A stretch of 64,000 nucleotides of DNA from Bacteroidales bacterium (GTDB lineage Bacteria; Bacteroidota; Bacteroidia; Bacteroidales; GCA-2748055): contig JARGFP010000017.1 of NCBI GenBank assembly GCA_029210585.1, forward strand, positions 37,256 to 101,255, given 5' to 3'. Positions 2,952 through 63,800 of the stretch are shown here, one piece after another. Numbering within the stretch: the stretch's first letter is position 1; every line of letters starts with the position of its first letter. Below the pieces are notes generated by a model that searched no databases, was not told the DNA's origin, and saw only the letters and a list, made by a program, of their open reading frames with translations. The position numbers and the translations under genes were made by a program.

Positions 2952-4439
2952 ATGAACCCGATAAAGCAACTATTTGGTCAAACGGCTGTTTATGGCATGG
3001 GCATCGTTTTACCACGCTTGCTGAACTTTGTCATTCTCACCCCTTTTTACACCAGGAGATTTGATACAGGGGAATATGGCATCATCACGGAATTGTATGC
3101 CTATGTGGTACTATTGCTGATAATTCTGACCTATGGCATGGAAACCGGTTTTTTTAGGTTTGCAAGCAACAGTAACAAAAAGAATACGATCTATACCAGC
3201 ATCCTGCTTTCAGTTTTTTCAACCTCCCTGTTGTTTGTGATCGTGATCCGGATGCTCATGCAACCGCTTTCGGAATGGCTTCAATATGGCGGTAATCCTG
3301 AATATATACTCTGGCTGGCGATCATTGTTGCAGCAGATGCTTTTACAGCGATTCCCTTCGCCAGGATCCGGCTGTACAACAAGGCAAAAAAATATACGCT
3401 GATCAGGATCATTGAGATCTCTGTCAACATTGGTTTGAACCTGTTTTTTATCAAGTATTGCCGGGATAACTACGAATCCGTGGCATGGATCAGTAAGATC
3501 TACGACCCGTCAATAGGAGTGGGGTATGTGCTGATCTCTAACCTGGTATCGTCCCTGTTGAAGATAATCCTGTTGTCTGCAGAGATCTTTGCGTTCCTGA
3601 AAGGAAAATTCGACCTGCAGCTTTTCAGGCAGGTACTGAAATATTCCTATCCGCTGCTTATTGCCGGACTGGCAGGAGCAGTGAATGAAGCGCTCGACCG
3701 TGTCCTGTTGAAACACCTGCTCGATCCGGCATCTGATCCCATGGGACAACTGGGTATCTATGGGGCAAATTACAAGATCGCCGTACTCATGACCCTCTAT
3801 GTACAGGCATTCCGGTACGCAGCAGAACCGTTTTTCTTTTCAAAATCCGGTGAAAAGGACGCCAAAATTCTGTATGCGGATGTAATGAAGTACTACATTA
3901 TCCCGGGTTTGCTGATCTTCCTGGTGGTAAATGTTTACCTTGAATACTTCAAACTATTTATTGGACCGGAATTCAGGGAAGGGGTGCACATTGTCCCAGT
4001 TGTGCTGATGGCCAACCTGTTGATCGGAATCTTTTTCAACCTCTCTATCTGGTACAAACTGGAAGACAAGACGATGATTGGTGCAATGCTCGTTATCACG
4101 GGTGCACTCATTACCATTGTTGTCAATATCACTTTTGTTCCGGGGTTTGGATACATTGCTTCCGCATGGGGACACCTCCTGTGCTATTCCGTGATGATCA
4201 CCCTGTCTTACCTGCTGTCGCGGAAACACTTCCGTATTCCATATGATTTCAGGAGGATATTGATTTATTTTATTACCATTGTGGGGTTCTTTTATGCCGA
4301 CCGGTTGTTAACTTTGCAGGATAGTTCAGTGACAAATGTTCTCAAACCAGTCTGGATCTTAGCCGCATTGGTGATCTTCTATGTTGGAGAGAAGCAGGGA
4401 TTTGTGAAATACACAAAAGCGGTGAATAAAACAGGGTAA
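2952..4439 (+). CDS. Oligosaccharide flippase / MATE-like membrane protein (Wzx-like)
   Basis: 495 aa, about 12-14 hydrophobic segments, N-term [27 protein letters not shown]. Confidence 0.85.
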
Positions 4440-61380: not shown

Positions 61381-61453
61381 GGTGCCATAGCTCAGTTGGT
61401 AGAGCACAGGACTGAAAATCCTGGTGTCCCTGGTTCGATTCCTGGTGGCACCA
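61381..61453 (+). tRNA. tRNA-Phe (anticodon GAA)
   Basis: GGTGCCATAGCTCAGTTGGTAGAGCACAGGACTGAAAATCCTGGTGTCCCTGGTTCGATTCCTGGTGGCACCA. Confidence 0.97.
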
Positions 61454-61468
61454 CCGAAACAAATCACA

Positions 61469-61503
61469 GATCCCGCATAGTCAATGACTTGCGGGATTTT
61501 TTT
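61469..61503 (+). terminator. tRNA-Phe terminator
   Basis: GATCCCGCA-TAGTCAATGACT-TGCGGGATTTTTTT. Confidence 0.88.
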
Positions 61504-61519
61504 GTGGGGGTGTTGATGG
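61479..61519. repeat. Direct repeat, left copy (att-like) at tRNA-Phe terminator
   Basis: AGTCAATGACTTGCGGGATTTTTTTGTGGGGGTGTTGATGG. Confidence 0.85.
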
Positions 61520-62525: not shown

Positions 62526-62836
62526 ATAGTTAACGGACGTTCTGGTTTATCTAGCACTTGAACCTCAACACGAAATACCGGTAAATACCTCACTTTTAAT
62601 ATCACCAATCATTGTTGTTCGGTAAAACCGGATTTTAATTGATATTTAAAATTAACCATCTGATTTACAGATGTGATATTTTTACTTTTCAAATGTAAGT
62701 CCACTTTAATTCAGGGAATAACGAGGTTTTATAGCGCTCTTTGTTTTTTTGTGATTATTCGTTTCAAGAAAAATTGAGGATAAAAGTCCTAGAATTATAT
62801 TTATTATTAATAATATTGGCCTTCAAATTTGATATA

Positions 62837-63379
62837 ATGATTTTTGAAATACTCATAAAACTAAAGGGCTCGAACCCTCAGATATGGAGGCAAGTTCAGG
62901 TTGACGCTTCAATCTCATTGGATAAACTACATCATATCATTCAAGCCTCAATGGGCTGGACGAATTCTCATTTACATTCTTTTTCTATTGATGACATCGA
63001 GTACAGTCATCCGGATTTTAGTGATGCAGATTTTCTGTTTGCCGATTCAACGAAGTATAAACTGAAGGATTTTGCTGAGGAAAGAATTTTGTATGTATAT
63101 GATTATGGTGATTATTGGGAACATGAAATCGAAATAATAAGGAAGATAGATACGCCAATATTACTTAAAGCTGTGTGTATTGACGGGCAGGGAAAATGTC
63201 CTCCAGAGGATGTAGGGGGGATTTATGGCTTTGATGAATTTTTAAAAATAATGGCTGATAAGAATCATCCAGAAAGGGATTCATATATTGAATGGTGTGG
63301 AGAGGAGTTTGATTTAAATGATTTTAGTGCAGTTGAGGCAAATAGCAATTTATTAAGGATATCACTACTGTCCGGTTAA
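62837..63379 (+). CDS. Plasmid pRiA4b ORF-3-like protein; last codons and stop supplied by an inserted element
   Basis: MIFEILIKLKGSNPQIWRQVQVDASISLDKLHHIIQASMGWTNSHLHSFSI, VYDYGDYWEHEIEI, CPPEDVGGIYGFDEFL. Confidence 0.88.
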   Translation: MIFEILIKLKGSNPQIWRQVQVDASISLDKLHHIIQASMGWTNSHLHSFSIDDIEYSHPDFSDADFLFADSTKYKLKDFAEERILYVYDYGDYWEHEIEIIRKIDTPILLKAVCIDGQGKCPPEDVGGIYGFDEFLKIMADKNHPERDSYIEWCGEEFDLNDFSAVEANSNLLRISLLSG

Positions 63380-63570
63380 ACTCAATATGCAATATTTTAA
63401 ATTATAGAAGTATCGTAAACTGCTCAATATGTGAAACATACATTAATCAGATCTTTAAATACCATGCTTTATTCTTTAAAATAAATTCAAGTCGAAAAAA
63501 CATAAGATCACTTGTAGTGGCTATTAATAAAGGCTTACAACAGATTAGCTCAAAATTAACCGGACTAGTG
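63363..63570. mobile_element. 208-bp MITE-like non-autonomous element
   Basis: TIRs CACTACTGTCCGGTTAA / TTAACCGGACTAGTG; perfect 9-bp target duplication TAAGGATAT at 63354-63362 and 63571-63579; no ORF. Confidence 0.8.
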
Positions 63571-63710
63571 TAAGGATATAGGTAAATTTTCTAATTAGTT
63601 TATGATAAACCTTTAAAAATTCCCTCATAGGTTTTCAAACGTAAATAGAGAATATTACTTGAATCTATCTAAATAAGATTTTAAGTTAAAATATATTTCA
63701 ATTGTATTTC

Positions 63711-63751
63711 AGTCAATGACTTGCGGGATTTTTTTTGAGGGGTGTTGATGG
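63711..63751. repeat. Direct repeat, right copy (att-like)
   Basis: AGTCAATGACTTGCGGGATTTTTTTTGAGGGGTGTTGATGG, near-identical to 61479-61519. Confidence 0.85.
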
Positions 63752-63800
63752 TTTTTCCATTTATCCGGGAACTTTAAATCCCCGGATAAATGAAAAAACC
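63750..63800. terminator. Long inverted repeat, bidirectional terminator-like
   Basis: GGTTTTTcCATTTATCCGGG-AACTTTAAATC-CCCGGATAAATGaAAAAACC, 19/20 paired, A/T tracts on both sides. Confidence 0.8.

Follow-up and report, generated by a model that had tools for sequence, protein, structure and literature searches.

To judge from its sequence, the 208-bp element at positions 63363-63570 of the window (the whole 64,000-nucleotide stretch of DNA analysed here) belongs to the MITEs, short non-coding DNAs bearing only the ends that a transposase recognises. It was very probably moved in trans by a transposase of the IS4 family and inserted in a stop codon, that of a pRiA4b ORF-3-like gene, and it illustrates neatly, on a small scale, how a passenger element can alter a protein's end. 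The features concerned are as follows.

62610-62744, minus strand: IS relic, the right end of the type of IS found complete on contig C74 of the same genome (CATTGTTGTTCGGTAAA end plus transposase C-terminal codons)
62834-63379, plus strand: pRiA4b ORF-3-like gene (PF07929), 181 aa as now read
63354-63362, no strand: target-site duplication, left copy TAAGGATAT, a perfect 9-bp repeat
63363-63570, no strand: non-autonomous element (MITE), 208 bp, 29% GC, without an ORF of its own
63363-63379, plus strand: left terminal inverted repeat CACTACTGTCCGGTTAA, including the new in-frame TAA at 63377-63379
63556-63570, minus strand: right terminal inverted repeat, reading inward CACTAGTCCGGTTAA; the family form CACTAGTGTCCGGTTAA is 2 bp longer
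63571-63579, no strand: target-site duplication, right copy TAAGGATAT; its final T plus the following AG formed the original TAG stop

The element and the stop codon of its host gene

The initial annotation described a 208-bp element with inverted termini, flanked by a perfect 9-bp duplication, and both descriptions were borne out. The terminal core GTCCGGTTAA is complementary at 10 of 10 positions; the ends measure 17 and 15 nt and are a 2-bp gap apart, the right one reading CACTA--GTCCGGTTAA with 2 bp fewer than the left. Next to the ends, the subterminal sequence reads AATCTG(T/C)TGTAAGCCTTTATTAATAG. The element is AT-rich and non-coding, and the sole long frame that touches it is that of the host gene. 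Its length (MITEs span about 50-1000 bp), lack of coding sequence, inverted ends and target-site duplication are those of a MITE, and its ends are common with autonomous elements, namely full IS4-type elements elsewhere, with related ends on an IS of its own genome. It is repeated in the genome, with a copy number (n=2 in an assembly of 116 contigs) that is low for a MITE.

Placement of the insertion within a stop codon, with the new TAA inside the left terminal repeat, was confirmed by reading the frame. The gene now ends AAT TTA TTA AGG ATA TCA CTA CTG TCC GGT TAA (NLLRISLLSG*); with the element and one repeat deleted it ends AAT TTA TTA AGG ATA TAG (NLLRI*), and the uninterrupted sequence expected at an empty site is AATTTATTAAGGATATAGGTAAA. 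The PF07929 match (192 bits) stops at residue 165 of 181, leaving the added SLLSG outside the Pfam domain. Because these extra residues lie beyond the conserved domain, the effect of their addition is most likely neutral or nearly so.

Orthologues with an empty site, which the initial annotation had proposed looking for, were not found. The nearest orthologues (59% and 56% identity) are about 13 residues longer, end differently and lack the element, and they are too diverged to be aligned at the site. The contrary outcome that it had considered, the 208 bp recurring as conserved sequence downstream of orthologues, was not encountered either.

IS4-family elements and a second copy in the same genome

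A second copy of the MITE was found on contig C11. It is 197 bp long, 77% identical to the window element, and flanked by a different perfect 9-bp duplication, CTGCCGTGC. The copy lies in an intergenic array of degenerate 20-bp tandem repeats (TTCATCTTCCATGCCTGATG; locus L002, 1357-1494). When the copy and one duplicate were removed, the 20-bp units came back into phase (offsets 159, 179 and 199), which is an internal demonstration of an empty site. Both genomic copies bear a 2-bp lesion at one end.

The same genome carries a complete IS on contig C74 (3204-4608), with ends CAGTAGTGTCCGGTAAA and CATTGTTGTCCGGTAAA. Its transposase matches DDE_Tnp_1, DUF4372 and NCBIfam transpos_IS4_1 above cut-off; the last score, 204.8 bits against a cut-off of 115, supports the IS4 family only and not a subgroup. 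Elements of the IS4Sa subgroup are 1150-1750 bp long, have ends of the form CA------T, possess the YREK signature and make duplications of 8-10 bp (De Palmenaer et al. 2008, PMC2266710). The C74 element is 1405 bp long with a single ORF of 423 aa, its ends (CAGTAGTGT and CATTGTTGT) have this form, as does the left end of the MITE (CACTACTGT), and its duplication, ATTAATAAT, is 9 bp. The transposase retains an intact Y(2)R(3)E(6)K signature (YKKRWQIELLFKQLK) and the spacing D146-70-D217-103-E321, within the range D(60-110)D(100-150)E. These sequence features allow the IS4 assignment to be refined to elements resembling the IS4Sa subgroup. The window element shares with that subgroup its CA------T ends, a duplication within 8-10 bp and an autonomous 1405-bp YREK element in the same genome, but it is only 208 bp long and encodes no transposase.

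Contig C69 has at its edge part of a second transposase of the C74 type (38% identical), so the genome must contain, or once have contained, at least one more IS of this kind. Several relatives (L034 on contig C74 at about 3315-3330, and also L056, L058 and L098) were also seen to have the terminal core TGTCCGGTAAA in inverted copy about 120 bp in from the left end, inside the first part of the transposase gene. This inverted copy might be an autoregulatory binding site or a source of short sub-elements.

The initial annotation held that inverted repeats with a 9-bp duplication would fit mobilisation by an IS4-type transposase, and proposed a search for further copies and for an IS with matching ends. 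The C11 copy, the related ends of the C74 IS and the exact end on full IS4-type elements of other genomes (below) all support this proposal, and the opposite outcome, no other copy and no matching IS family, did not materialise. Its statement that no transposase is present held for intact genes in this part of the window; it did not hold for fragments, as the relic at 62610-62744 contains transposase codons. This relic, which immediately precedes the pRiA4b ORF-3-like gene and is separated from the MITE by 620 bp, is related to the MITE by family and is not part of it.

A transposase other than that of C74 may have moved the MITE, because the C74 ends read GGTAAA whereas those of the MITE read GGTTAA. 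End-by-end scoring of 168 IS ends revealed none that shared MITE sequence beyond the terminal repeat: over the next 45 bp, the best scores were at or barely above the maximum obtained from shuffled ends. An exact pattern search of genome contigs for the conserved right subterminal sequence, aimed at a parent IS, gave no matches. Shared subterminal sequence, by which derivation from a particular parent IS through internal deletion would be recognised, was thus not observed among the IS ends examined.

Occurrence of the ends in other genomes

In a collection holding one genome per species, the exact 18-mer end CACTACTGTCCGGTTAAA occurred in at least 119 places in the genomes of other species. 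It bounds full elements of 1273-1392 bp, five of which (L131, L140, L143, L145 and L193) contain relatives of the C74 transposase and have perfect 9-bp duplications; three more (L210, L223 and L236) were judged to be full elements by size and duplication. The same end bounds seven elements of only 130-202 bp with perfect 9-bp duplications (L135, L158, L169, L214, L218, L233 and L237) and three of 195-310 bp whose 9-bp duplication has one mismatch (L182, L200 and L201). The interiors of these short elements, where seen, differ from that of the window element. Flanks of 9 bp matched perfectly in 25 of the 37 end pairs examined, a figure that does not count independent elements, as some loci overlap. 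One 18-bp end therefore marks widespread IS4-type elements together with their short non-autonomous companions across several phyla, and offers a practical way to annotate MITEs of this sort, which gene-based annotation overlooks.

The window element itself was not found in plasmids or phages. Among 394 genomes of the order that were sampled, matches to it were short and weak only; two in genome G229 share the first 24 bp of the left end (23/24) and have an unrelated interior. An IS4-type end joined to a palindromic repeat, GATTCCTCGCTTCGCTCGGAATGACA, was noted in L117 and L118 (both G229) and in L182 (Bacteroidales), the last within a 195-bp element whose 9-bp duplication has one mismatch. 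This association suggests that the palindromic repeat may travel in IS4-type MITEs.

Proposed history, alternatives and genomic setting

We propose that the MITE was excised elsewhere by an IS4-family DDE transposase (IS4Sa-like, DUF4372 type) working in trans and was inserted at a 9-bp staggered cut, immediately behind the T of the TAG stop that ended the pRiA4b ORF-3-like gene; gap repair would then have produced the 9-bp duplication. As a result of the insertion phase, the ribosome would read on into the left terminal repeat, adding five codons (SLLSG) before it halts at the TAA there. We infer both the mobilisation in trans and the order of these events from the arrangement of the DNA.

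Non-autonomous elements of this kind are known. MIC231 and the IS231-derived elements of Bacillus, in the IS4 family, are non-autonomous, have IS4-family ends and are moved in trans, and MIC231 carries a cargo gene. The window element is likewise non-autonomous with IS4-family ends, but without a cargo gene, and MIC231 and IS231 belong to a different IS4 subgroup. IS231 makes duplications of 10-12 bp (PMC2266710). In the parts of the published account considered here, QMITE1 and QMITE2 of Coxiella burnetii are short MITEs that overlap gene 3' ends by 1-50 bp, QMITE2 being 150-190 bp long with 7-11-bp duplications, and an in-frame insertion of a Coxiella MITE provides the last 33 residues of EnhC (PMC5896051). 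These parts of the account thus supply a precedent for a MITE at a gene end. They also describe elements that differ from ours in having dozens of copies per genome and another sequence, and they contain no link between a QMITE1 or QMITE2 parent IS and IS4 (PMC5896051). The window element adds to the known IS4-type MITEs; the event is ordinary and involves no new mechanism.

Could the inverted ends and direct repeats have arisen by chance? We searched for a perfect 9-bp repeat directly bounding a segment of 100-600 bp with a 10-bp inverted end match. The real 64-kb window contained exactly one match, and 100 windows of equal length and composition simulated by a Markov model contained one between them; taken alone, this gives only about p = 0.01 per window. 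The repeat structure by itself, without other evidence, is suggestive only. The reality of the element is settled by the second copy with its own repeat, by the complete IS of the genome, and by the recurrence of these ends, with 9-bp duplications, across many phyla, leaving a chance origin with a negligible probability. The element might instead be what remains of a complete IS4-type IS whose middle was deleted after insertion here, rather than a mobile MITE. Its ends do match complete IS elements, and decay of this kind does occur in this region, as the degraded IS end of the same family at a distance of 620 bp shows. Against such an origin stand the interior, unlike any IS end beyond the terminal repeat, and above all the 77% identical, 197-bp copy of that interior elsewhere with a 9-bp duplication of its own, from which it follows that the short form itself moved. 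The second copy largely refutes the remnant explanation, which we regard as very improbable.

It is also unlikely, if somewhat less so, that the insertion was adaptive and was kept because it strengthened the stop (TAG to TAA), ended the transcript or supplied an RNA structure. The new stop is indeed TAA, the plus strand of the element folds better than shuffled sequences (z = -2.86), and insertions at gene 3' ends recur: one of the MITEs compared is located 3 bp after a stop codon, and in Coxiella the ends of several genes are overlapped by MITEs. The inverted ends themselves, however, account for much of the fold. No terminator-like site was predicted in the element, it had no credible Rfam match, and promoter-like sites in it were no more frequent than in shuffles. 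The C11 copy is intergenic, within a tandem array, and only one of 12 short elements examined, the window element, lies in a stop codon. That gene ends tolerate insertions is enough to account for the position. As insertion at a stop codon does least harm, neutral persistence of the MITE is the simplest reading, and neutrality is what we infer.

The window ends at the end of contig C25. A tRNA-Phe gene is located at 61381-61455. Just downstream, a 41-bp sequence (61479-61519) recurs as a direct repeat at 63711-63751 with 93% identity; elsewhere in the family, other genomes too have the first copy conserved next to tRNA-Phe. The 2.2-kb segment between the repeats holds the pRiA4b ORF-3-like gene, the IS relic and the MITE, and no integrase was seen in it. 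This segment looks like a small accessory insertion, and its place next to a tRNA gene like a hot spot for such insertions, which would explain why an orthologous empty site was not found in relatives.

Within the segment, two IS4Sa-type ends in inverted orientation flank the pRiA4b ORF-3-like gene: the relic end at 62610 and the right end of the MITE at 63570. Given this arrangement, the 961-bp segment could conceivably be mobile as a gene cassette, in the manner of MIC231 and its cargo, although we give this only a slim chance. Transfer of the segment as one unit was considered and rejected: its flanks, ATCACCAAT and TAAGGATAT, do not form a 9-bp duplication. The segment therefore did not move as a unit into its present place, and the capacity would be potential only. 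A palindrome with 25-nt arms (88% complementary) was also observed at 63750-63800, shortly before the contig end.
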